A stretch of DNA of 64,000 nt from Dokdonia sp. 4H-3-7-5 (GTDB lineage: Bacteria > Bacteroidota > Bacteroidia > Flavobacteriales > Flavobacteriaceae): NCBI RefSeq assembly GCF_000212355.1, contig NC_015496.1, positions 124,001 to 188,000 on the forward strand. The letters run 5' to 3'. Positions within the stretch are counted from its first letter, which is position 1, and every line of letters begins with the position of its first letter. The position numbers and the translations under genes are program-made. The notes under the pieces are model-generated. The model saw only the letters and a list, made by a program, of their open reading frames with translations. It ran no database searches and had not been told where the DNA came from. This document shows positions 15,013 to 27,047 of this stretch, in pieces.

Positions 15013-15242
15013 CCTCTTCTGTACGCTTTCGCGAAAATGTGATATCACACGACCAAGTCTATTGGTAGATTATTGCGACTTGTAACAAGTATTCAAATAG
15101 CCGTTTGCAAACGTTTACAATTGAAAACATGCGTTTATACGCTGAAAATCGAGATTGCTAGGATTAAGTAAAAACATTCGTTTATACACCTGGTATGGGT
15201 ATGATATATGACTAATATGTAATAACTTGCGTTTATATAAAC
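15013..15242. other. Left border of the cassette array
   Basis: No gene. It holds a decayed dispersed palindrome (15025-15036), a 12-bp palindrome CGTTTGCAAACG (15102-15113) and three spaced copies of (G/T)CGTTTATA at 15131, 15178 and 15229. The last forms the 12-bp palindrome GTTTATATAAAC just before the first cassette core GTTGTGAGCA (15243-15252). This is where an attI or a first attC-like site would be expected. Confidence 0.45.
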
Positions 15243-16140
15243 GTTGTGAGCAATGCGAAAAAAACATTGAATGAGAATAAAAATCGAAATAATAATAATT
15301 GGAATTTTAGGAGTTTTATCAATTTCTTGCGACTCAAAAAAAACAGCTACCCTTTCGAAATCCGAATTTTTCACTGATTCAATTTTTAGTAAACATTTAA
15401 ACGAATATCGAAAACATAATGTCTATTTACCAAAAAGATTTACAAAAGAAAAACAGTATCCGATTTTATACGCAACCGACGGGAGTAATAAAATTGAGAA
15501 CAGTTTCATCAAAAAAACTTTAGATTCTTTAATTGAAAATAAAATTATTAAGCCTATAATTTATGTTGGAAGTCATTCTAATGGTAAAATAGCTGATAGC
15601 ACTTCAACTAAAACTGGTAATGGAAAGAAAGTTTATTTGCAGTATCGAAATTATGAATATGTAAATCATCCATTTATTGAATCCATAAAACCAGAATTGG
15701 CAAATAGGTTTAAAGAACATATGCAATATTTTAAAGATGAGCTAATTACATCTATTGAAAACGAATTTAACCAAAATTCCACTAAGGATAGTAGATATTT
15801 TTATGGTGTTTCTAATGGTGCAGGTTTTGGATTAAGTATGTTAAATAATTACCCAAATACTATTGGAACATATCTTTGTTTTTCAACATTTGGTGGAGAT
15901 ATTCAAACGAATATTTGGAAACCTAACGTAGATTATCCAAAACTAATTCTAGAGTATGGGAGTGAAGAACCTTTCTTTCTAAAAGAAGATGCGGACTTTT
16001 TAAAATCAAAATATAAGGAACTAAATATAACGGCGGAAATTAATGAGTTTAATGGTGGACACGACTATAAAAAATGGAATGAAAAATTCATTGAAATTAT
16101 TAGTAAGGAATTAGCAGTCGAGTAAAGCACTGCTCACAAC
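15243..16140 (+). other. Cassette A (esterase-like lipoprotein)
   Basis: Unit bounded by the matched inverted repeat GTTGTGAGCA (15243-15252) and TGCTCACAAC (16131-16140) around a single + strand gene. In integron cassettes the first bases of a cassette are complementary to the inverse core at its own end, which is what is seen here. Confidence 0.65.
15271..16125 (+). CDS. Esterase-family alpha/beta hydrolase lipoprotein
   Basis: 284 aa. Lipobox LSISC with the lipidated Cys at residue 20, so probably anchored in an envelope membrane. The body resembles the putative esterase family (esterase D / enterochelin esterase type): YPILYATDGS near residue 65, nucleophile elbow GVSNGAG with Ser181, and a C-terminal His in GGHDYKKW (His264). 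The substrate is unknown. Start ATG 15271 lies 18 bases after the cassette core. It is the first gene of the cassette array, is very AT-rich and stands alone between its inverted repeats, as expected for a mobile cassette. Confidence 0.8.
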   Translation: MRIKIEIIIIGILGVLSISCDSKKTATLSKSEFFTDSIFSKHLNEYRKHNVYLPKRFTKEKQYPILYATDGSNKIENSFIKKTLDSLIENKIIKPIIYVGSHSNGKIADSTSTKTGNGKKVYLQYRNYEYVNHPFIESIKPELANRFKEHMQYFKDELITSIENEFNQNSTKDSRYFYGVSNGAGFGLSMLNNYPNTIGTYLCFSTFGGDIQTNIWKPNVDYPKLILEYGSEEPFFLKEDADFLKSKYKELNITAEINEFNGGHDYKKWNEKFIEIISKELAVE

Positions 16141-16332
16141 ATTGTATATAAAAAATAGCGCAAGTCATTGCAAACAGAAAGGTTTGGGCATTTTTGGAAA
16201 GTCGCCAAATTTTTAAATTTGACAAATTCCCAAAAATAAAATAATTAGTAAAATTTAAAAAATTGGCTTGTGTATAATCCGAAATTTATCGCTTACTTTC
16301 AGTGCTACTTTTCATATACGTAGCCGTTACCC
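16134..16332 (+). other. attC-like site 1
   Basis: Inverse core TCACAAC (16134-16140), left arm GTATATAAAAAATAGC (16144-16159), right arm GCTACTTTTCATATAC (16304-16319; 14 of 16 positions pair with the left arm), then core GTTACCC (16326-16332). This is the R''-L''-L'-R' layout of integron attC sites, about 199 bp long. The cores deviate from strict GTTRRRY, so the assignment is an inference from architecture. Confidence 0.65.
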
Positions 16333-16337
16333 ACAAG

Positions 16338-16844
16338 TTGAAAAAAACATTACGAAATATAATAATCATTCTATTTTTCCCTCTGACTTTGGTCGGACAA
16401 AATAATGATGCGCATGTTGAAGATCTGAATAAAATAACAAGAATAACTCGAGAAGTTGCTAAAATAAATCTAACCGAAAAAGATTTTAACGAAGGAATTG
16501 CAGAAGGACCAATTATTTACAAAAGCATATTCAGAAAAAATGGAGGTTGGACAGCATACTATCTTTATGAAAATCAAAATGACAACCCACCTTTGCGAAT
16601 TAAATATAGCCAAACAGCAAAAAAAGGTTATGACGAATTTGAGTTTTATTACAAAGATGGAAAAATGATATTCGCCAAATTGACCGAATTTAAAAATCGT
16701 GGAAGGAATAAAGGCACTGAAACTAAACGCTTATTTTACTATAAAGATAACGAACTGATTTACACAACGGAATCTGAAAAGGAAAAGTACGCTGAATATA
16801 TAAAGCGGACTGAAAAAAGTGTTCGGAAAATGATATATGAATAA
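16338..16844 (+). CDS. Exported protein of unknown function (cassette B)
   Basis: 168 aa, not recognised. Start TTG 16338 gives a clear signal peptide (KKTLRNIIIILFFPLTLVG, cleavage before QNN). The frame is open back to an ATG at 16302, but that part lies inside the attC-like site, so TTG is preferred. The mature part is charged, with many Lys/Glu and Tyr/Phe, and has sheet-like stretches (WTAYYLYENQND, YDEFEFYYKDGKMIFAKL). The gene is flanked by GTTACCCACA (16326) and TGTGGGTAA (16851), so it forms a one-gene cassette. Confidence 0.7.
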   Translation: MKKTLRNIIIILFFPLTLVGQNNDAHVEDLNKITRITREVAKINLTEKDFNEGIAEGPIIYKSIFRKNGGWTAYYLYENQNDNPPLRIKYSQTAKKGYDEFEFYYKDGKMIFAKLTEFKNRGRNKGTETKRLFYYKDNELIYTTESEKEKYAEYIKRTEKSVRKMIYE

Positions 16845-16858
16845 AAAACCTGTGGGTA

Positions 16859-18696
16859 ATCGAGTAGACGGCTCTGCTAGCAACTAGCAGAGTGCGCCTC
16901 TCACACCACCGTACGTACGGGTCTCGTATACGGCGGTTCAATAATTATACAGTTCGTTTATAGTACTCGATTAGACTAACATAACCTCTCATTTTTAACC
17001 GCTTAATAGTAATTGTAGCGCCTAGTATAGGGCTTTGAGCGACTGCCCATCCTCCCATTCTTGTGCGACTCCAAGCATAGGCGTGGTCTAAGTTTACTCC
17101 TAAACGGATTAGGTTTTTACGCTTCCGTTCTGGTTTCTTCCAGTGATGCCATATGCAGTACCTCAATCGGTTTCTTAGCCATTCTTCTAGCTTCTTAAGC
17201 TTCGACTGAATGGAGGCAGGTTTAAAGTAATTTATCCAGCCACGTATTAATAGGTTGATACGCTCATCAAAACTTGCAGGTATCGTCTTTTTGGTCAGGT
17301 ATTTAAGTTTTGACTTAAAATCTTGCCATTTAGCCTAGTTACCACAAGCTGATACTTCCCTTTTTCCCCTTTCTTAGACGTTGGCACAAATCCAAAGCCT
17401 AATACTTGGAAATCTAAAGGTCTCCGCACACCGCTCTTTACCCTATTTATGGGAAGTTGGAGGTGGTCTCGCAAATACTTATAGATACTGTTACCTACAC
17501 GCTTTGCAGCCTCTTTACTTTTAACGTAAATACTAAAATCATCGGCATATCTTACATAACGATGTCCTCGTTGCTCTAATTCTTTATCAAGCTCATTGAG
17601 CAGAATATTAGAAAGCAATGGACTTAATGGCGAACCTTGAGGCACGCCCTTTCTTCGTTTTTGTAATCGACCGTTAATCAGTATAGGCGCTCTAAGAAAT
17701 GAACGCAATAACCGCATCGTGGCTTTGCACTGTACCTTTTTGTAAATCAACTCTAGAAGTATACAGTGTGATACTTCATCAAAGAAACTCTTTAAATCTA
17801 TATCTACTATATCTTGAAAACCAGCATTGATATTTAAAAGGCTTTGTGCCGTGGCTTGATGGGCATTACGTTGTGGTCTGAACCCGTAACTATGCTTTTG
17901 AAAGTCTGGCTCAAATAAAGGTTGCAATACTTGATGTAATGCCTGCTGAAATACTCTATCAACAACTGTAGGAATACCGAGTAATCGTTTCTTGCCATTG
18001 CTTTTAGGGATTTCAACACCTAATATAGGAGACACCTGATAGCGCTTTCTTTCTATGTGCGAAATGTATTGTTTTCCATGAATCTGTAGTATAGATTTTA
18101 GCTCTTTAATATAAACGTTATCCACTCCAGCAGATCCCTTGTTACGATACACTCGCGCCTAGGCTTCGTTTAGATTCTTTTTGCTTGTTACTTGTTTAAT
18201 CAATACTCATAATTTGAATTGCTGTCTCGCTTAATCGAAGGCTATTGTTTTACTAGAAAACTATCCGTAGCATAAAACAACACCTTTGGTCATTAAAGAC
18301 AATTATTGTTCTGTCCTTCACTAAAATATCAGGATTTAGCTACTATGACTTCTGCTGACTTCTCTAATAGACCAACTCCTGGTTATAGAGACCTCCCCAG
18401 GTAAGAACATCTTCTTTCTCTCAATCCCTGCCGTATCTACATAATTACCCTTTTGATACTATTTAGGGCGTAACAATGATGTGCTTGCTTACCCAAATAA
18501 TTATGCCTCATATACGGTTCCTGTTCGTCAGTACCGAGATTTGTAGTCCTGCTTTCTTCAGTCCTAGCTTCACAACTAGCAACCTTGCAGCTTACTAATG
18601 GTTCAAGGCGTTACCCCTGCCCATAAGGGACTTGCACCCTCTAGATAAATAAACTACTTTTAATAAGTAGTCTAAAGATGCCCATACTGGGCACAC
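16859..18696 (-). mobile_element. Group II intron copy 1 (frameshifted)
   Basis: 1838 bp, antisense to the cassettes. The 5' end GTGTGCCCAGTATGGGC and 3' end CTACTCGAT are shared with copy 2. Domain V lies at 16905-16938 (GTACGTAC / GTATACGG stem), and next to it is a CTCTGCTAG / CTAGCAGAG hairpin. The boundaries are set by comparing copies 1 and 2 and by restoring the attC-like site on removal. About 97% identical to copy 2 by eye. Confidence 0.85.
16945..18152 (-). pseudogene. Group II intron reverse transcriptase, frameshifted
   Basis: Same protein as the copy-2 reverse transcriptase, but broken. A 1-base deletion near 17331 (tttagcctag versus tttagacctag in copy 2) ends the first part after 285 codons at VVTRLNGK, and the maturase C-terminus continues in another frame (16945-17166). 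A second, in-frame 9-base deletion lies near 17262. The RT core with YADD is intact. As in copy 2, an in-frame TAG at 18159-18161 lies just upstream of the start. Unlikely to be active without help from copy 2. Confidence 0.88.
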
Positions 18697-18883
18697 ACAA
18701 AGTATATAAGCAATGCGGGAGTTTTTGCTTAATTAAAAGTAAATGTATATTTTGAAGTCGCCGAATTTTTACAAATCCGACTTTTGATAAGAAAAAAATA
18801 AAAAGCGGACTTTGTAAAAATCGGCTTGTGCTCAACCGAATGGATAAAGCCATTTTCGCCCGCAACTATTCTTATACAACAAC

Positions 18884-19096
18884 GTGGACGGCTGATTGCC
18901 AAAGGACATGTTTTTCATCTCAAGATAAGCCACATCCAAGGCAATAGCATACTTGCAAATTCCCGCCATCGTATGGCTCCGCTTCAAAATCAGAACACCT
19001 CAAAAGTCGTTGAAATATCGAAGAGTTGGGTATAGATCAAGTTAGAGCAAATCCGCAAGGATTTTAAAGCTCCCACCCTACCAATCAGCCGTCCAC
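18884..19096 (+). other. Gene-less cassette G
   Basis: Bounded by an exact 15-bp inverted repeat: GTGGACGGCTGATTG (18884-18898) and CAATCAGCCGTCCAC (19082-19096). About 210 bp with no credible gene; the open frame at 18826-19035 starts in the attC-like site and has no family features. Its inner part recurs at 23164-23285, and its start recurs at 25826. Confidence 0.6.
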
Positions 19097-19165
19097 AGGC
19101 CACTGCTCAAAAATGTCTAGGGTACACATCTAAAGAATAGAAAGCTCAAACGTTGTTGCAACCAG
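19097..19165. other. Degenerate segment between attC-like sites
   Basis: Short stretch between cassette G and attC-like site 3, with a possible core GTTGTTG at 19152-19158. TCAAAAATGTCT (about 19107) is the inverse of AGACATTTTTGA (about 19191). GGCCACTGC here also repeats the inverse of the GCAGTGGCC before the next core, which suggests remains of a rearranged site. Confidence 0.35.
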
Positions 19166-19323
19166 CCACAACTACAGCATAAAGCGAATGAGACATTTTT
19201 GAAAGCTCCACGCGCGGCGACAGAACCACAAATAACTGTATATTTAGACAATCAATTAATAAACAAATAAATACAGGCTATCCAGCAAAATGCCGCACTC
19301 GCTTTATGCAGTGGCCTGTTACC
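19166..19323 (+). other. attC-like site 3
   Basis: Inverse core CCACAAC (19166-19172), left arm GCATAAAGCGAATG (19177-19190), right arm CACTCGCTTTATGC (19295-19308, pairing at 13 of 14), core GTTACCA (19317-19323). The right-arm sequence ctcgctttatgcagtgg-ctG is repeated before the cassettes at 24823 and 26073. Confidence 0.65.
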
Positions 19324-19335
19324 ACACATTAGAAA

Positions 19336-20448
19336 ATGAAAGACCTGAAAATTTGTAAAGATGAATTAGATATTAGTAATGCAGAGATTGAGAAGGCGGA
19401 AAAAATTTGGAACACGAAATTTCCTTTAGAATATAAAGAGTTTTTACTTGAAAATAATGGAGGAATTTCATATCCAAATTGGCCAACAATTCCATCTGAG
19501 AATAATTCTGAATTATGGGGAATTGAGAGATTTCTTAGTATTGGTGATGTAATTTTACAAAAGCAATATCCAATGACTTATACTCTGAACGATATTGACC
19601 AAGAAGATTTTGAACCACATAACTTAAATAAGGATTTACTCTTAGTTTTTGCTTTAGGGGAAAGAGGTATCTATTTCTTTCATTTAAGCGAAAATGATTT
19701 TGGACAAATATATTTTGCAAATTATTCAGGAGGTGATGGAATAGTAAAAGTAAAAACAAAATCCTTTAAAGAATTCCTAAATTCTTTAGATTTATGGGAA
19801 TGGTCTGATGAAGAATATAATCCAAACTTCAAATTTGAAAAACCCTACTGTACAGAGAATAAAATTATTCAAACTCATCTATTTCATACACCCAACAATC
19901 CAGAATTAGGTTTTAATAGATTTAAGGAAGTAGTAGAAGTGCTTTGTAATGTTCAACCTGAAGAAATTAAAAACGCAAACATTCCACATAAATATATTAA
20001 TGACATATCAAAAATAGAACATCTTATTAAAAAAGGATGCAATACAGATGTTCTTCTTTCATCTGCTAGAAAATCCAAAATAATTAAATATTTAATAGAA
20101 CAAAAAGGATTAGACATTAATAAAACCTATAAAGGCAGATATCCTTTACAAAACTATCTTACTGTAGGCTCACCTAATGATGCAAAGGTTAAATATCAGT
20201 TATTATCGGAATTACTTGAATTGAAAATTGAAATGGATTGGTCTGTTACAGGAAATAAATATGATGGAACGCCTGATTTTCCAATGATAGAAAAGTTAAA
20301 AATTCTGAATGAAAAATATTTACAATATGAAATTGATGAAAAGAATTGGTGGATAAAAAATGGAAAACCAACGGGACACATTCCATATCCAAAAAGCTCA
20401 TTTATTGAAAAAAAACTAGGTAACACAAATATTAAAACTGATTCTTAA
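19336..20448 (+). CDS. SMI1/KNR4-family protein with ankyrin-like tail (cassette C)
   Basis: 370 aa, cytoplasmic. Residues about 12-155 match the SMI1/KNR4 (SUKH) pattern: ISNAEIEKAEKIWNTKFP, LEYKEFLLENNGG, a GIERFLSIGDV segment and a long acidic loop with FALGERGIYFFHL. SUKH proteins are often immunity proteins against contact-dependent toxins. Residues about 195-300 look like divergent ankyrin repeats (DISKIEHLIKKGCNTDVLL, IIKYLIEQKGLDINKTYKGR). No toxin gene is adjacent, as usual for a stand-alone cassette. Bounded by GTTACCACAC (19317) and GTGTGGTA (20457). Start ATG 19336 follows the core by 12 bases. Confidence 0.78.
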   Translation: MKDLKICKDELDISNAEIEKAEKIWNTKFPLEYKEFLLENNGGISYPNWPTIPSENNSELWGIERFLSIGDVILQKQYPMTYTLNDIDQEDFEPHNLNKDLLLVFALGERGIYFFHLSENDFGQIYFANYSGGDGIVKVKTKSFKEFLNSLDLWEWSDEEYNPNFKFEKPYCTENKIIQTHLFHTPNNPELGFNRFKEVVEVLCNVQPEEIKNANIPHKYINDISKIEHLIKKGCNTDVLLSSARKSKIIKYLIEQKGLDINKTYKGRYPLQNYLTVGSPNDAKVKYQLLSELLELKIEMDWSVTGNKYDGTPDFPMIEKLKILNEKYLQYEIDEKNWWIKNGKPTGHIPYPKSSFIEKKLGNTNIKTDS

Positions 20449-20464
20449 GAAATAACGTGTGGTA

Positions 20465-22313
20465 ATCGAGTAGACGGCTCTGCTAGCAACTAGCAGAGTG
20501 CGCCTCTCACACCACCGTACGTACGGGTCTCGTATACGGCGGTTCAATAATTATACAGTTCGCTTGTAGTACTCAATTAAACTAACATAACCTCTCATTT
20601 TTAACCGTTTAATAGTAATTGTAGTGCCTAGTATAGGGCTTTGAGCGACTGCCCATCCTCCCATTCTGGTGCGACTCCAAGCATAGGCATTGTCTTGGTT
20701 TACTCCTAAACGGATTAGGTTTTTACGCTCCCGTTCTGGTTTCTTCCAGTGATGCCATATGCAGTACCTCAATCGGTTTCTTAGCCATTCTTCTAGCTTC
20801 TTAAGCTTCGACTGAATGGAGGCAGGTTTAAAGTAATTTATCCAACCACGTATTAATAGGTTGATACGCTTGATGCGGTCGTCAAAACTTGCAGGTATCG
20901 TCTTTTTGGTCAGGTATTTAAGTTTTGACTTAAAATCTTGCCATTTAGACCTAGTTACCATAAGCTGGTACTTCCCTTTTTCTCCTTTCTTATACGTTGG
21001 CACAAATCCAAAGCCTAATACTTGGAAATCTAAAGGTCTCCGCACACCGCTCTTTACCCTATTTATGGGAAGTTGGAGGTGGTCTCGCAAATACTTATAG
21101 ATACTGTTACCTACACGCTTTGCAGCCACTTTACTCTTAACGTAAATACTAAAATCATCGGCATATCTTACGTAACGATGCCCACGTTTCTCTAATTCTT
21201 TATCCAGCTCATTGAGCAGAATATTAGAAAGCAATGGACTTAATGGCGAACCCTGAGGAACGCCTTTTCTGCGTTTTTGTAATCGACCGTTAATCAGTAT
21301 AGGCGCTCTAAGAAATGAACGCAATAACCGCATCGTGGCTTTGCACTGTACCTTTTTGTAAATCAACTCTAGAAGTATACAGTGTGATACTTCATCAAAG
21401 AAACTCTTTAAATCTATATCTACTATATCTTGAGAACCAGCATTGATATTTAAAAGGCTTTCTGCCGTGGCTTGATGGGCATTACGTTGTGGTCTGAACC
21501 CGTAACTATGCTTTTGAAAGTCTGGCTCAAATAAAGGTTGCAATACTTGATGTAATGCCTGCTGAAATACTCTATCAACAACTGTAGGAATACCGAGTAA
21601 TCGTTTCTTACCATTACTTTTAGGGATTTCAACACCTAATATAGGAGACACCTGATAGCGCTTTCTTTCTATGTGCGAAACGTATTGTTTTCCATAAATC
21701 TGTAGTATAGATTTTAGCTCTTTAATATAAACGTTATCCACTCCAGCAGATCCCTTGTTACGATACACTCGCGCCTAGGCTTCGTTTAGATTCTTTTTGC
21801 TTGTTACTTGTTTAATCAATACTCATAATTTGAATTGCTGTCTCGCTTAATCGAAGGCTATTGTTTTACTAGAAAACTATCCGTAGCATAAAACAACACC
21901 TTTGGTCATTAAAGACAATTATTGTTCTGTCCTTCACTAAAATATCAGGCTTTAGCTACTATGACTTCTGCTGACTTCTCTAATAGACCAACTCGTGGTT
22001 ATAGAGACCTCCCCAGGTAAGAACATCTTCTTTCTCTCAATCCCTGCCGTATCTACATAATTACCCTTTTGATACTATTTAGGGCGTAACAATGATGTGC
22101 TTGCTTACCCGAGTAATTATGCCTCATATACGGTTCCTGTTCGTCAGTACCGAGATTTGTAGTCCTGCTTTCTTCAGTCCTAGCTTCACAACTAGCAACC
22201 TTGCAGCTTACTAATGGTTCAAGGCGTTACCCCTGCCCATAAGGGACTTGCACCCTCTAGATAAAAAAAACTACTTTTAATAAGTAGTCTAAAGATGCCC
22301 ATACTGGGCACAC
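20465..22313 (-). mobile_element. Group II intron copy 2 (intact ribozyme ends)
   Basis: 1849 bp, antisense to the cassettes. 5' end GTGTGCCCAGTATGGGC at 22313, the early GGTGCAAGTCCC element typical of group II introns, domain V at 20511-20545, the CTCTGCTAG/CTAGCAGAG hairpin at 20479-20499 and the 3' end at 20465. It encodes a reverse transcriptase without an endonuclease domain. Insertion in an attC inverse core on the strand opposite to the cassettes is the habit of group IIC-attC introns. The structural class was not verified by folding. Confidence 0.85.
20551..21768 (-). CDS. Group II intron reverse transcriptase/maturase
   Basis: 405 aa from GTG at 21768. Reverse transcriptase for intron mobility and maturase for splicing. 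Seen: RT0/1 (NKGSAGVDN, KRLLGIPTVVDRVFQQAL), GFRPQRNAHQA, SFFDEVSH, KGVPQGSPLSPLLSNI, the catalytic RYVRYADDFSIY, then the GIIM maturase domain (IRGWINYF, WLRNRLRYCIWHHWKKP, SRTRMGGWAVAQSPI). No endonuclease domain follows. Upstream the same frame reads NLNEA, TAG (21775-21777), ARVYRNKG, which aligns with the usual N-terminus of these proteins, so the amber codon interrupts a conserved block. Either translation begins at GTG or the stop is read through. Confidence 0.9.
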   Translation of the reverse strand: MYRNKGSAGVDNVYIKELKSILQIYGKQYVSHIERKRYQVSPILGVEIPKSNGKKRLLGIPTVVDRVFQQALHQVLQPLFEPDFQKHSYGFRPQRNAHQATAESLLNINAGSQDIVDIDLKSFFDEVSHCILLELIYKKVQCKATMRLLRSFLRAPILINGRLQKRRKGVPQGSPLSPLLSNILLNELDKELEKRGHRYVRYADDFSIYVKSKVAAKRVGNSIYKYLRDHLQLPINRVKSGVRRPLDFQVLGFGFVPTYKKGEKGKYQLMVTRSKWQDFKSKLKYLTKKTIPASFDDRIKRINLLIRGWINYFKPASIQSKLKKLEEWLRNRLRYCIWHHWKKPERERKNLIRLGVNQDNAYAWSRTRMGGWAVAQSPILGTTITIKRLKMRGYVSLIEYYKRTV

Positions 22314-22434
22314 ACACCGGCTATAGTTCATTGCGGCGGAATTTCCTCTCGGAAATTACTGCGTATTTGCTAACTTTGGTTTACGGCGGAATAGTTCTGC
22401 CGAACCATCCCGCAACGAAACCATAGCCAAAACC

Positions 22435-22935
22435 GTTGGCAGCAAGCTAAAAGACAACCAAATAGAGATTCAATTACGAACAGATTATGCAGACATTTAT
22501 ACACTACTTTTTACACTTTGGCTTTCCGTTTTTTATCGCCTATGGATTTTTTAGAAAAGATTGGAAAAAAGTCTATTTGATATTGCTTGCAACGATGTTG
22601 GTTGATTTAGACCATTTGGTTGCAAACCCCATATTTCAAGCAAATAGATGTAGCATAAATTTTCATATTTTGCATACATACTACGCAATGATAGTTTATG
22701 TGATACTGCTCTTTTTCCGTAAACCGTTCAACATAATTGGGATTGGACTTTTATTTCATATGCTTACAGATTTTATAGATTGTATGATGATGTATTCGAA
22801 TTGTAAAGACTGTTTTTCAGACTCACCAGCGATAGAACTATTAAGAATGACTTCAAATATATTCGGAATGTAAACAAGCAAAGTATGATAATAAAAGGAT
22901 TCTTGACCAGTATAAAAAAGAAAGCCAGCTGCCAA
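22435..22935 (+). other. Cassette D (DUF6122 membrane protein)
   Basis: Bounded by GTTGGCAGC (22435-22443) and GCTGCCAA (22928-22935), complementary over 8 bases, around one + strand gene. The right-hand inverse core is interrupted by the remnant of intron copy 3. Confidence 0.6.
22487..22873 (+). CDS. DUF6122-like small membrane protein
   Basis: 128 aa, three or four membrane helices. The DLDHL motif (about residue 41), HILHTYYAM and FHMLTDFIDCMMM resemble the histidine/aspartate-rich DUF6122 proteins, which look like shortened relatives of YdjM-type membrane metal-dependent hydrolases. The family call comes from the pattern alone. The conserved His and Asp at the membrane face suggest metal binding, but no reaction is known. 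Start ATG 22487. A single gene between the inverted repeats of cassette D. The short C-terminal tail with CKDC (about residues 104-107) could bind metal. Confidence 0.65.
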   Translation: MQTFIHYFLHFGFPFFIAYGFFRKDWKKVYLILLATMLVDLDHLVANPIFQANRCSINFHILHTYYAMIVYVILLFFRKPFNIIGIGLLFHMLTDFIDCMMMYSNCKDCFSDSPAIELLRMTSNIFGM

Positions 22936-23167
22936 TCGAGTAGACGGCTCTGCTAGCAACTAGCAGAGTGCGCCTCTCACACCACCGTACGTACGGGTCT
23001 CGTATACGGCGGTTCAATAATTATACAGCTCGTTTATAGTACTCAATTAAACTAACATAACCTCTCATTTTTAACCGCTTGATAGTAATTGTAGTGCCTA
23101 GTATAGGGCTTTGAGCGACTGCCCATCCTCCCATTCTTGTGCGACTCCAAGCATAAGCGCTGTCTTG
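22935..23167 (-). mobile_element. Group II intron copy 3, 3' remnant
   Basis: Only the last 233 bp of the intron remain: 3' end, small hairpin, domain V (22981-23014) and the reverse transcriptase C-terminus. The break at 23164-23167 (CTTG) joins it directly to the interior of a cassette-G copy, and the same four bases occur at the matching place in both parents, so a microhomology deletion is likely. Confidence 0.85.
23021..23167 (-). pseudogene. C-terminal fragment of intron reverse transcriptase
   Basis: Encodes SAYAWSRTRMGGWAVAQSPI and the following residues to EYYKRAV and stop, corresponding to the last 49 or so residues of the intron protein. The N-terminal nine tenths were deleted. 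The upstream open codons belong to the fused cassette-G sequence and are not part of the gene. Confidence 0.85.
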
Positions 23168-23285
23168 CAAATTCCCGCCGTCGTATGGCTCCGCTTCAAA
23201 ATCAGAACACCTCAAAAGTCATTGAAATATCGAAAAGTTAGGTATAGATCGAGTTAGAGTAAATCCGCTAGGATTTTAAAGCTCT
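23164..23285. repeat. Second copy of cassette-G interior
   Basis: About 122 bp matching 18952-19073 with around ten differences (TTGCAAATTCCCGCC through GGATTTTAAAGCTC). It shows that cassette G, or the intron plus cassette G, existed at least twice in this array. Confidence 0.85.
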
Positions 23286-23650
23286 CAGCGTTACCCCCTT
23301 GCCATTCCCCTGTTAGCGGGTGATGAGACTCAATAAGCTATTGTCTCTGTGTGTTCTTCTCATCTGCACGTTACCCATAAGATGCAAGAACAATTGTTTT
23401 ACTCATTCTTCACCTCATTATCATCTAACTACAGCATTATTAGCTCAATCATCTGATGCTTAGTTAGGAACGAAAGGCAATAGTCATTTGATAAACAATT
23501 CTTTAATTGAAAACTTCTTATAAACTTGCGACTACCAATTAGCTACAATAACTTAAATAACGTGTTTAAGTTATTGTTGATAAAACATCTTTAAGAAAAC
23601 AAAATACTTGTGTATTCTTAATTATTTTTATAAAAAAATTATAAGAAGCT
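23286..23650. other. Array remnant without a gene
   Basis: About 365 bp with no gene. Possible degenerate cores GTTAGCG (near 23310) and GTTACCC (near 23371), and a hairpin TAACTTAAA / TTTAAGTTA at about 23549-23573 that could be a terminator or leader hairpin of the next gene. Confidence 0.4.
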
Positions 23651-24265
23651 ATGAGACAGTTGACTAATAAGTTGTATACATTATTAATTTTAATAAGTTG
23701 TTTTTCTTCCATTTCCTGCAATAGTACTCCTGATAAAGAAATTAAGGAACCAGTTTTATTAAATGCCGATAATGAAAAAGTAATGGGTGCTGATAAAACC
23801 AAAATTTACAATTTTAATGAAGGTTGTGTAGAGACCTTTAAAAAAATAGATTTCTCATCCTTATGTTTTACTGATGAACACACTCCACCATATAGCACTG
23901 GAGACATGTCATTTATGAAAAATAGATGTCAATATACGCTAGCAGATGGACAGATTAAATTAGGGATAGTTTTTAAAGACTATTCAACTACCAAACCAGA
24001 AGAGGTAAATGATAGACTTAACTCTGAAAGAAAAGCATATATGATGACCGAAAAATTGATGTACAAGAATATTCAAATAATTGAAGATTTTAAGTATTCT
24101 GCGGTCATAAGTGAGAATAGCTTAGCCGACTCTAATGTGAAGAAATTGACTATATTTTTTAATAATATTGTAATCTTTATTGAAGCAGATAAAAATAATT
24201 GCGCAGCTACTAATGATTCCTTATTAAAGACAGGGCAAATAGTCCTAGAATCCGTTATTGAATAA
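23651..24265 (+). CDS. Lipoprotein of unknown function
   Basis: 204 aa. The signal peptide ends in lipobox SSISC (Cys23), so it should be lipidated. The mature protein has two regions: an N-terminal linker (NSTPDKEIKEPVLLNADNEK) and a mixed domain with four further cysteines (EGCVETF, SLCFTDEH, NRCQYTL, NNCAATN). No family is recognised. It carries an ATG start and sits in the AT-rich accessory block, downstream of the rearranged part of the cassette array. No clear flanking core repeats were found, so cassette status is uncertain. Confidence 0.7.
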   Translation: MRQLTNKLYTLLILISCFSSISCNSTPDKEIKEPVLLNADNEKVMGADKTKIYNFNEGCVETFKKIDFSSLCFTDEHTPPYSTGDMSFMKNRCQYTLADGQIKLGIVFKDYSTTKPEEVNDRLNSERKAYMMTEKLMYKNIQIIEDFKYSAVISENSLADSNVKKLTIFFNNIVIFIEADKNNCAATNDSLLKTGQIVLESVIE

Positions 24266-24306
24266 AGTCATTGTATTGTAGAAAAGATAAAAATGAAATA
24301 AAGGGC

Positions 24307-24459
24307 TTGGTAACTCAGTTAAAAGAATATCTAGGTGGCATGGATATGGAAGAAATTAGTGAGTGGGGAGTTCAAATTCATCTAGATAGCGAAAGACATA
24401 ATATCAGCATAAGACCACAAGACCCTCATGCAAGTCGCTCGTTAAAATACTCTACGTAG
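24307..24459 (+). CDS. Small ORF, possible gene remnant
   Basis: About 50 aa. The frame is open from 24271 but has no good start; TTG codons at 24271 and 24307 are the only candidates. The sequence LVTQLKEYLGGMDMEEISEW and a segment with SERHNISIRP looks protein-like and soluble, unlike random translation, so it may be the end of a decayed gene. No family recognised. Confidence 0.35.
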   Translation: MVTQLKEYLGGMDMEEISEWGVQIHLDSERHNISIRPQDPHASRSLKYST

Positions 24460-24845
24460 GAATAAAAAATCGCTCAATAGAGAACTGAGTTTAAAAACAA
24501 GCCTCTTTCGCCTAAGCTCAGCACAAACTTTAAGCTAATTTTAATCTATAGTTTTCATCGCAGGGTGATCCTGATTTTATGATCGTAAAGAATTGTTTTA
24601 AGAGCTTATTTGCCAGTATAATAGGGACTATTTTTATCTTCACTCATACTCAATATGCTTTCGCGAAAGCGTACTTCTTTCAATCAACTTTAAAACCGCT
24701 ACGCGCAACGCGCAACTTCAAATTTCATTGTATACTTAGATCAAACCAACAAGACTATAAATCAAAGCAAATCAGTAATCCCGATAGCTATCGGGAGCTG
24801 TACTCGCTTTATGCAGTGGGCTGTTGGCAACAAGCGGAAAAACGA
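24460..24845. other. Non-coding stretch before the LprI-like cassette gene
   Basis: 386 bp. It contains the dispersed palindrome (24657-24670), a 120-bp block repeated at 25953-26074, the 16-bp palindrome CCCGATAGCTATCGGG (24780-24795) and the right half of an attC-like site ending in core GTTGGCAAC (24823-24831). The open frame that crosses it in phase with the next gene has no family features. Confidence 0.55.
24703..24823. repeat. About 120-bp direct repeat, copy 1 (copy 2 at 25953-26074)
   Basis: Roughly 80% identical by eye to 25953-26074. Both carry CCCGATAGCTATCGGG (24780-24795 and 26031-26046) and end in ctcgctttatgcagtgg-ctg followed directly by a cassette core. A related but shorter end precedes the core at 19317. 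These look like right halves of one attC-like family. Confidence 0.75.
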
Positions 24846-25691
24846 ATGAAAAATATATTAGCAATTTTAATTCTGACTTTGACTTTTAATTGTTTTTCGC
24901 AAACTCAAGCGGAAATGAATAAAAACGCAAATAAGGAATACAGAAAAGCTGACAAAGAACTTAACATTGTTTACCAAAAAATCTTGAGTGAATATCAATT
25001 AGACTCATTTTTTATCGACCGACTTAAAAAAACACAGCGAATTTGGAATTCTTACCGTGACGCTGAATTGGAAATGAAATTCCCTGCTGATAATAAGCAA
25101 GCCGAATATGGAAGTGTCTATCCAATGTGTGTTTCTTTGTTTTTAAAGGAACTGACTGTAGAGCGAACTGAAAAATTACGAGTTTGGTTAAATGGAATTG
25201 AAGAAGGCAACATGTGGTCAGGTTCTGTAAAAACAAAAAAAGAATTAGACTTCGAATATGTCGCAACGAAAAAATTTGTTGAGCTTAAACTTCCTGATTC
25301 ATTAGAAGTAATTCCAAATAAAAGTCTTATTGCGGACTTTAATGGTGACTTAAAACCAGATGTAGCAACACTCGTAAAAAACAAACGAAACTCAAAAATC
25401 GGTGTACTCATAGTGAATCATTCCAACGATAAAATGTTTGTTTTTGGAGCGGGAAAAGAAGTTGATAATATGACTGACTTGGTCTGGATTGAAATATTCA
25501 AAATGATCCCAAAGGGTGAAATTGTTTCACCTACTTTAGTCGACGAGGTGACTGGAGATATAATCGGACAAGACGAAAGCAAAAATTTTGAACTTATTGG
25601 AAACGGAATTTACATGAGCGTTGAGGAATCTCACAGAGGCGGAATTTTATTTTGGTCCGGAAAAGAATATAATTGGTATCATATGGAATAA
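24846..25691 (+). CDS. Exported LprI/DUF1311-domain protein with FG-GAP-like motif (cassette E)
   Basis: 281 aa. Signal peptide MKNILAILILTLTFNCFSQ. Residues about 22-115 match the LprI/DUF1311 pattern (ANKEYRKADKELNIVYQKIL, LKKTQRIWNSYRDAELE, one Cys in YPMCVSLFLKELT). Some family members inhibit lysozymes. The C-terminal half has an integrin-like calcium loop (ADFNGDLKPDVATLVKN) and mixed strands. Start ATG 24846 is chosen because it gives a signal peptide and lies 15 bases after the core; the upstream open frame lies in repeat DNA. Flanked by GTTGGCAAC (24823-24831) and its exact complement GTTGCCAAC (25699-25707). Confidence 0.8.
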   Translation: MKNILAILILTLTFNCFSQTQAEMNKNANKEYRKADKELNIVYQKILSEYQLDSFFIDRLKKTQRIWNSYRDAELEMKFPADNKQAEYGSVYPMCVSLFLKELTVERTEKLRVWLNGIEEGNMWSGSVKTKKELDFEYVATKKFVELKLPDSLEVIPNKSLIADFNGDLKPDVATLVKNKRNSKIGVLIVNHSNDKMFVFGAGKEVDNMTDLVWIEIFKMIPKGEIVSPTLVDEVTGDIIGQDESKNFELIGNGIYMSVEESHRGGILFWSGKEYNWYHME

Positions 25692-25700
25692 AAAGCCAGT

Positions 25701-25832
25701 TGCCAACTATGCATATATTTTATTGCTAAGTTCTAGCTTGTTTACAAAAGTACTCGCGGACTTTCTATTCGTTTTTTATTTACTTACTTAGTCACTTGAT
25801 CACGCAACTTTCCATATACATAAACGTTGACG
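25701..25832 (+). other. attC-like site 5
   Basis: Inverse core TGCCAAC (25701-25707), left arm TATGCATATATTTTATTGC (25708-25726), right arm GCAACTTTCCATATACATA (25804-25822) with imperfect pairing, core GTTGACG (25826-25832). It is not interrupted. Confidence 0.6.
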
Positions 25833-26072
25833 GCTGATTTCCAAAGGACCTATTTTTCATATTAAGATAAGCCACGTCCAACGCAGTAGTATACTCGTAA
25901 ATTCCCGCAATAGTTCGTTTCTCACTCGTCGAATGCAATTCTGAACTCCTTATGCGCGGCGCACAACTCCGAAATTCATTGTATATTTAGATCAAAAAAA
26001 TAAGACTGCAACCTAAAGCAGATCAGCAATCCCGATAGCTATCGGGAGCCGCACTCGCTTTTGGCAGTGGTC
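25826..26072 (+). other. Gene-less cassette related to cassette G
   Basis: Begins GTTGACGGCTGATT, then follows cassette G for about 110 bp (aaaggac, tttttcat, aagataagccac, aattcccgc) before passing into the 120-bp repeat. No gene is visible. The expected closing inverse repeat is missing, so this copy is truncated. Confidence 0.5.
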
Positions 26073-26086
26073 TGTCAACCATAATT

Positions 26087-27021: not shown

Positions 27022-27047
27022 TAATACAGCATTTAATAAAAAATAAT

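Follow-up and report, generated by a model that had tools for sequence, protein, structure and literature searches.

The 64,000-nucleotide stretch of the Dokdonia sp. 4H-3-7-5 chromosome analyzed here (contig NC_015496.1, positions 124,001 to 188,000; called the window, in whose coordinates positions are given unless stated otherwise) carries an integron-like cassette array at 15243-26075. The array is flanked on its left side by the region of a gene that we take to be ald and on the other side by window position 27039. Sequence comparison leads us to put the probability at roughly 85% that this is a satellite cassette array of a chromosomal integron, run by a 274-residue tyrosine recombinase encoded at 2.55 Mb, 2.4 Mb from the window, in the same 3.39 Mb, one-contig genome. 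As judged by alignment, this candidate integrase is without the additional domain specific to IntI (the I2 region around patch III), and bulged bases are absent from most of the attC-like sites; this joint absence is the main new point. A preliminary description of the window, made from its letters alone, had proposed an integron-like array, perhaps of a divergent Bacteroidetes type, with no integrase in view, and this reading is supported by the results below.

The array is built of single plus-strand genes bracketed by private inverted repeats of 9-15 bp, each cassette being followed by a long attC-like hairpin. Cassettes C1, C2, C4, and C7 open with GTT and 6-7 private bases, and the reverse complement of this start closes the same cassette; that is, the cassette start is complementary to its own terminal inverse core, as in an integron platform. 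The repeat pairs named in the preliminary description are present around C1, C2, C4, C7, and C3, a cassette without an open reading frame (ORF). For C5, only the 7 bases GCTGCCA (22928-22934) can be read before the sequence passes into an intron fragment, and a length of 9 bp depends on two assumed bases. The attC-like sites of C1-C4 fold as had been suggested, with bottom-strand folding energy (dG) z-scores of -3.4, -4.2, -5.4, and -4.1, and the site of C7 folds weakly (-1.0). The cassette proteins match an esterase, SUKH, DUF6122, and LprI families in Pfam, and the others have no Pfam match. Run on the window itself, the automatic site detector returned 3 sites, 2 of them probably spurious, and no chain, because introns interrupt the array. 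The window array by itself is statistically weak, and its strength comes from its relatives.

The point at which cassettes are joined is fixed. Window positions 15125-15245 match the DNA that extends from the start codon of the candidate integrase to the first cassette of the integron at 2.55 Mb. This attI homology is 98% in the copies of this genome and of two same-genus genomes (G404 and G407), and it stops at ...ACGTT (query position 118-119), after which the three copies continue with three different sequences. An attI beside the integrase, a fixed joining point, and different first cassettes are thus all found, as in an integron platform. Likewise, the ald site of G404 matches the window up to 15245 and that of G407 up to ...ACGTT by eye (blastn continues to 15263), and both then carry different cassettes; the ald site of G403 (locus L139) matches to 15045, carries other cassettes, and rejoins the window at 27039. 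The 7 ORFs of the window array have no blastn match at 1e-5 in five loci (L137, L138, L139, L156, and L175). Cassette content therefore differs among same-genus genomes behind a conserved flank at the same chromosomal site, which agrees with the earlier proposal of a cassette array. The integrases of G404 and G407 are 99% and 87% identical to the query. In G403, also a single contig, the array at the ald site stands in a genome in which no integrase of this family was detected at E ≤ 1e-30. In a Dokdonia metagenome-assembled genome (L007, 1-2290), no cassette site was detected directly behind attI, and the frames there resemble a metal-transport operon by eye, perhaps a large insertion at attI.

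The genome contains five recombinases with a PF00589 match, and all of them fall outside the window, in agreement with the earlier remark that no integrase is in view. One is XerD (over the cut-off), one is XerC-like (294 bits, cut-off 335), and two more are L004 and L005. The fifth, at 2.55 Mb, is the 274-residue protein, encoded at 1195-2019 of locus L003; it adjoins a second array whose cassettes run away from it, and on these sequence relations it is most likely the integrase of the window array. It scores 181.6 bits with the integron integrase model TIGR02249 (cut-off 265), 181.1 with the archaeal XerA model, and 166 with XerD. The TIGR02249 cut-off is thus not reached by this protein, whereas it is passed by 10 of 10 scanned IntI relatives (from the 21 taken as IntI) with unbroken matches of 320-485 bits; the matches of this genome leave profile positions 182-237 uncovered.

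Comparing the protein with Vibrio cholerae IntIA (2A3V), it becomes clear where the difference lies. Two blocks align (9-177/13-180 and 200-272/246-318), and between them lie 22 residues in the Dokdonia recombinase compared with 65 in IntIA. The distance between two conserved motifs is 64 residues in the query, 64-68 in those group relatives where both motifs were read (L009 gave no distance and L015 a mis-hit of 144), and 70 in three Bacteroidales sequences, compared with 106-110 in the 15 of 21 IntI relatives where both were read; hits not covering the query ends were skipped. Relative to the query, the core length varies from -2 to +2 in 40 of 40 group rows (39 genes) and is +3 in the three Bacteroidales rows, whereas all 21 of the relatives assigned to IntI have cores longer by 39 to 44 residues. 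The presumed catalytic R, K, H, R, H, and Y residues are invariant in 8 aligned sequences. In a careful tree, from which 5 long or odd rows were left out (L016, L026, L028, L036_1159, and L059), 15 canonical IntI sequences form a clade (100/97) that excludes the Dokdonia integrase.

The structure of the sites was examined at loci already known to hold them, so that the statistics describe sites and not prevalence. Among 111 detected cassettes, some of which are probably spurious, 107 start with GTTR and only 8 fit GTTRRRY, in line with the preliminary view that the cores depart from this consensus. Because the cassette repeat reads alike on both strands, running the detector on the opposite strand was useless as a control, and shuffles and unrelated stretches were used instead. 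The 58 chained sites, which come from 19 loci, show 65% pairing between their arms, and the figure falls to 43% when arms are swapped between sites; as site ends were chosen by arm complementarity, the percentages lean upward, a lean from which the swapped-arm and strand comparisons are free. With wobbles counted, the uninterrupted L helix of these 58 sites has a median of 16 bp on the bottom strand and 6 on the top strand, and it reaches at least 12 bp in 40 sites on the bottom strand and in none on the top strand. With swapped arms, its mean is 2.9 and its maximum 7. These 40 sites, the ones classified, have no extrahelical L-arm bases. In the 51 helices that reach 10 bp or more, the R' side of the spacer exceeds the other by 3 nucleotides (nt) in 38 cases, by 2 in 11, and by 4 in 2.

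The mismatches in the L arm are also strongly polarized. Across 98 sites, top-strand A-C, which is a G-T wobble on the bottom strand, outnumbers the reverse by 194 to 11; 89 sites are skewed toward bottom-strand G-T and 2 the opposite way, and 23 of 24 loci behave likewise. The median fold z-score is -4.3, and the bottom strand is the more stable in 34 of 38 sites (38 of 43, 5 having been removed by hand as likely spurious; the private repeat is included by construction). The sites thus fold on the bottom strand into a hairpin that has R and L boxes separated by a spacer, with the R pairing partly by construction. The comparison with canonical attC sites was uninformative, as only 2 chained sites were recovered from IntI loci. 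In known attC sites, according to passages of PMC2727003, strand choice is led by extrahelical bases, and it is these bases that I2 docks, as stated in part of PMC7790495.

A mechanism can be proposed in which the distant integrase would capture circular cassettes at attI (core ...ACGTT) via the folded bottom strand of attC, and the second attI near ald, at 15125-15245, would receive cassettes in trans. In the substrate, a private R box of ~10 bp would be followed by a spacer that is asymmetric, with an excess of usually 3 nt on the R' side, and then by a long L helix that has G-T wobbles on the bottom strand and is, in most sites, free of bulged bases near the foot. We infer that the 274-residue recombinase performs the recombination, that it does so on single strands, and that it acts on the distant array in trans; the wobbles or the asymmetric spacer may then replace extrahelical bases as the strand mark. 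A broader proposal, which we offer tentatively and with more doubt than belief, is that Bacteroidota integrons form another single-strand cassette system, one that either is older than I2 or never gained it. Its I2-less integrases would go together with attC sites mostly free of extrahelical bases, and the strand would be recognized by a wobble-paired long helix and an asymmetric spacer.

The recombinase is widespread in the family: of 397 Flavobacteriaceae genomes sampled, 250 have a match at E ≤ 1e-40. The measurements that show the domain to be missing cover the 30 best loci. Beside short-form integrases, arrays begin 119-126 bases upstream in L142, L146, L148, and L149. End-to-start cassette joins number 7 in L142, 5 in L148, 3 in L149, and 2, further out, in L150. 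The 8 control rows, from 4 stretches read on both strands, have none, and no shuffle (20 per stretch) gives more than 1. L180 has six sites, and L147 is cut by a contig end. In 19 further loci (18 genomes; frames of 310-481 residues), searched on both sides, at least 2 sites are present in 11 and chained in 9, and these 11 arrays lie downstream in 9 cases and upstream in 2. The frames are 310 residues in L198 and L199, which come from one genome, and 368-481 in the other 17; one more fetched locus, L200, at a contig end and with 0 sites, was left out of the 20. None of the 57 shuffles or the 58 control windows contained 2 sites, and 4 shuffles and 2 control windows contained one. An initial notion that long-form integrases have no arrays proved wrong, as only the upstream side had been examined and most of the arrays found later are downstream. 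In L181, L189, L192, L193, L197, L198, and L199, the downstream array is oriented like the integrase gene, the reverse of the arrangement in Dokdonia. A motif search for ribosomal RNA operons at the contig breaks beside long-form integrases found none.

Among wider relatives, at least 2 sites, well above shuffles, occur in 4 of 18 loci (L013, L014, L073, and L084). On a Chryseobacterium plasmid (L204, 8820-16816), a full-length relative is followed downstream by three chained attC-like sites (shuffle mean 0.57), and the opposite strand of this plasmid encodes a group II intron reverse transcriptase (RT). On another Chryseobacterium plasmid (L203), there is one weak site, at shuffle level. Together, these loci suggest that the type is not confined to Flavobacteriaceae, and it seems to occur on plasmids too. 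On an Acinetobacter baylyi plasmid (L201, 2967-4988), a relative of the integrase is found immediately upstream of tet(X3), and on a Klebsiella michiganensis plasmid (L202, 6139-7760) another has the same place next to blaVEB-3; both are annotated as short frames, with 41-43% identity over 86-89% of the query. As 0 sites were detected at these two genes, an origin of tet(X3) and blaVEB-3 in Bacteroidota integrons is only a lead.

Group II introns, overlooked in the preliminary description, lie inside the attC sites of the window array at three places, the third ending at about 23165 (Table 1). The RT of these introns scores 309 bits with the GsI-IIC RT (6ar1) and 311 with 7uim, which we take to be of the same class (IIC), compared with 113 for 6me0 and 112 for LtrA, and it is accordingly, by similarity, a class C enzyme. 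The RT frame of intron 1 is broken into pieces with a stop. In both arrays of this genome, 7 of 7 copies share a single insertion point in the inverse core and run antisense to the cassettes: all 7 left junctions coincide at one point, as do the 5 readable right junctions, and the exact 10-bp private repeats of C2 and of C4 are restored once the intron is passed over. In G407, the first ald cassette ends with the same intron at the same point by eye. Close copies of the intron RT are confined to the window array and to 2534-2549 kb of the genome, and the one further RT match is a distant RT with 34% identity. The same insertion place and direction are described for group IIC-attC introns, with the consensus TTGT/T, in passages of PMC7923331. 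The introns here share with that class the IIC-type RT, the antisense orientation, the R'' core of attC-like sites, and the form xTGT/T, whereas their host sites are of the Bacteroidota type and the junction core is TTGT/T in 2 of 5 readable junctions and GTGT/T in 3 of 5. This agreement in place and direction means that a second, unrelated element treats the sites as attC.

Several other explanations have to be weighed. Arrays without a nearby integrase are a known class (CALIN; passages of PMC9024848), and the window array resembles this class in that respect, as does the ald-site array of G403, in whose genome no integrase of this family was detected at E ≤ 1e-30; the array could thus belong to an ordinary chromosomal integron or CALIN, with a canonical IntI that keeps the additional domain elsewhere in the genome or was recently lost. 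However, a TIGR02249 match over the cut-off was found in 0 of 13 genomes tested, which largely refutes, and led us to reject, a canonical IntI elsewhere in this genome. Moreover, the domain-less recombinase abuts arrays in several genera, GTTRRRY is rare among the starts, and, unlike a CALIN, the window array keeps an attI-like copy, and the integrase in its genome has an attI of this kind. We therefore regard this explanation as improbable. Repeated non-autonomous transposons with terminal inverted repeats would account for the many copies of the ~440 bp ORF-less unit with its 15-bp repeat, but the units have repeat sequences of their own, chain end to end, share one fixed attI boundary, and lie next to an integrase, which makes them very improbable as transposons. 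Single units outside arrays were looked for only through a pattern search with the C3 attC end motif, which at up to 3 mismatches gave 8 matches, all within the two arrays of this genome, and 0 in the control.

Another explanation concerns the way in which the recombinase uses its sites. Its resemblance to Xer proteins is almost as high as that to IntI, and it is without the domain that part of PMC7790495 links to single-strand use; it might accordingly act on double-stranded DNA in the manner of Xer, the hairpins being incidental, for example as transcription terminators at cassette ends. Like XerC/XerD and archaeal XerA, it has no additional domain and similar family scores, whereas it adjoins attI and cassette arrays, has a C-terminal SPLD end, and shares its genome with a separate XerD and a XerC-like protein. 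Terminator RNA, however, has the letters of the top strand, and it is the top strand that carries A-C mismatches (194:11) and the bottom strand that forms the long wobble-paired helix (40 versus 0 of 58). The introns too target the bottom strand at the inverse core. We consider double-strand use unlikely, though less so than a canonical IntI.

A number of observations weigh against an I2-less integrase running cassette arrays on bulge-free sites. The 38 domain-less integrases form a clade in the careful tree with support of 81/66, which is not firm, and two domain-less Bacteroidales rows (L026 and L028) fell outside this group in a first tree. In 8 of the 19 further loci, fewer than 2 sites lie within 4.8 kb on either side; short-form L143 and L145 are at shuffle-level counts; and no site was detected in L175, beside the G404 integrase, or in L176-L178, where only 208-2400 bp are available on that side. 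On either side of long-form L151-L155 and L172 there is at most one site, the downstream sequence available being limited to 127-1685 bp. Among the wider relatives, the other 14 of 18 loci are at or near shuffle level, and the spread outside Flavobacteriaceae rests on few loci. As for the sites, 18 of 58 have no uninterrupted 12-bp helix, so that bulges are possible there, and a gap in the L arm is present in 31 of 98 aligned sites. By a looser folding count, the spacer excess is 3 nt in only 23 out of 53 sites, and 2-4 nt in 39. Finally, L194, one of the 24 loci, shows the opposite tendency in its wobbles, and part of the skew could come from a conserved arm sequence.

The satellite array and its candidate integrase share with the chromosomal integrons, as represented by IntIA, an intI that adjoins attI, single-gene cassettes arranged in tandem and all facing one way, a private inverse core matching the cassette start, a bottom-strand attC hairpin, a C-terminal SPL motif in the integrase, and variable content at a fixed site. 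Unlike IntIA, the Dokdonia integrase is without ~40 residues around patch III, including I2, and falls outside the sampled IntI clade; unlike canonical integrons, the starts are GTTR and mostly not GTTRRRY, and in most sites the L helix is unbroken over 12 bp. The system would work as an integron does, yet it departs from defining features of the IntI family, in which, according to passages of PMC9668308, the additional domain is treated as defining. Integrons are listed for Bacteroidota in parts of PMC8618304 and PMC2426708, whereas Bacteroidetes are not mentioned in passages of PMC8352920. Because the IntegronFinder 2.0 survey names, in passages of PMC9024848, one complete Bacteroidetes integron (Salinibacter ruber M1) while 250 of 397 family genomes carry such a recombinase, this kind of integron has probably been missed so far. 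Among the papers listed from the open-licence PubMed Central literature, judged by title and the start of the abstract, none describes a Flavobacteriaceae integron of this kind, and none reports that integrases lacking the additional domain run integron arrays.

Part of PMC7790495 describes the I2 helix as the innovation behind integron integrases and as absent from all other proteins, and the origin of this helix relative to attC sites is presented in passages of PMC4792948 as a chicken-and-egg problem. A widespread I2-less family apparently running cassette arrays on mostly bulge-free sites makes this question directly testable. If a second single-strand system without I2 is indeed at work, it would be a living answer to whether attC or I2 came first.

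Table 1 Features of the cassette array and its borders (window coordinates)
Feature	Position	Strand	Remarks
attI-like copy	15125..15245	+	~120 bp, 80% identity to L156
Cassette C1	15243..16140	+	ORF 15271-16125, putative esterase (PF00756); private 10-bp repeat GTTGTGAGCA/TGCTCACAAC
attC-like site of C1	16131..16325	+	Inverse core, L'' GTATATAA, L' CATATAC
Cassette C2	16326..16858	+	Private 10-bp repeat GTTACCCACA, partner completed across intron 1
ORF of C2	16338-16844	+	TTG start, or GTG at 16302; no Pfam match
Group IIC-type intron 1	16859..18696	-	Within bottom strand of C2 attC; Rfam group II D1-D4 matches
attC-like site of C2, remainder after intron 1	18697..18883	+	
ORF-less cassette C3	18884..19096	+	Private 15-bp repeat GTGGACGGCTGATTG/CAATCAGCCGTCCAC
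attC-like site of C3	19082..19317	+	Arms AGGCCACTGC/GCAGTGGCCT; fold z -5.4
Cassette C4	19318..20464	+	ORF 19336-20448, SUKH family (PF09346); 10-bp repeat across intron 2
Group IIC-type intron 2	20465..22313	-	RT/maturase ORF 20551-21768 open; Pfam RVT_1 and GIIM
attC-like site of C4, remainder after intron 2	22314..22434	+	
Cassette C5	22435..22934	+	ORF 22487-22873 (DUF6122, PF19617)
Truncated intron 3 fragment	22935..23165	-	Fused to ORF-less cassette piece (23164-23287)
End of ORF-less-type attC-like site before C7	24685..24822	+	Matches attC ends in L138, L139, and L156; motif with one mismatch
Cassette C7	24823..25707	+	ORF 24846-25691 (LprI domain, PF07007); private 9-bp repeat GTTGGCAAC/GTTGCCAAC
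attC-like site of C7	25699..25825	+	Whole-site fold weak, z -1.0
Diverged copy of ORF-less cassette	25826..26075	+	

The ORF-less cassette of ~440 bp recurs between coding cassettes, at 18884-19317, 23164-23287, and 25826-26075 of the window, and many copies of it are present in L138 and L156. In addition, the truncated intron joined to a piece of this cassette (22912-23285) is found in both arrays of the genome, the copy at L156 1330-959 being 96% identical, which suggests exchange or copying between the two arrays.

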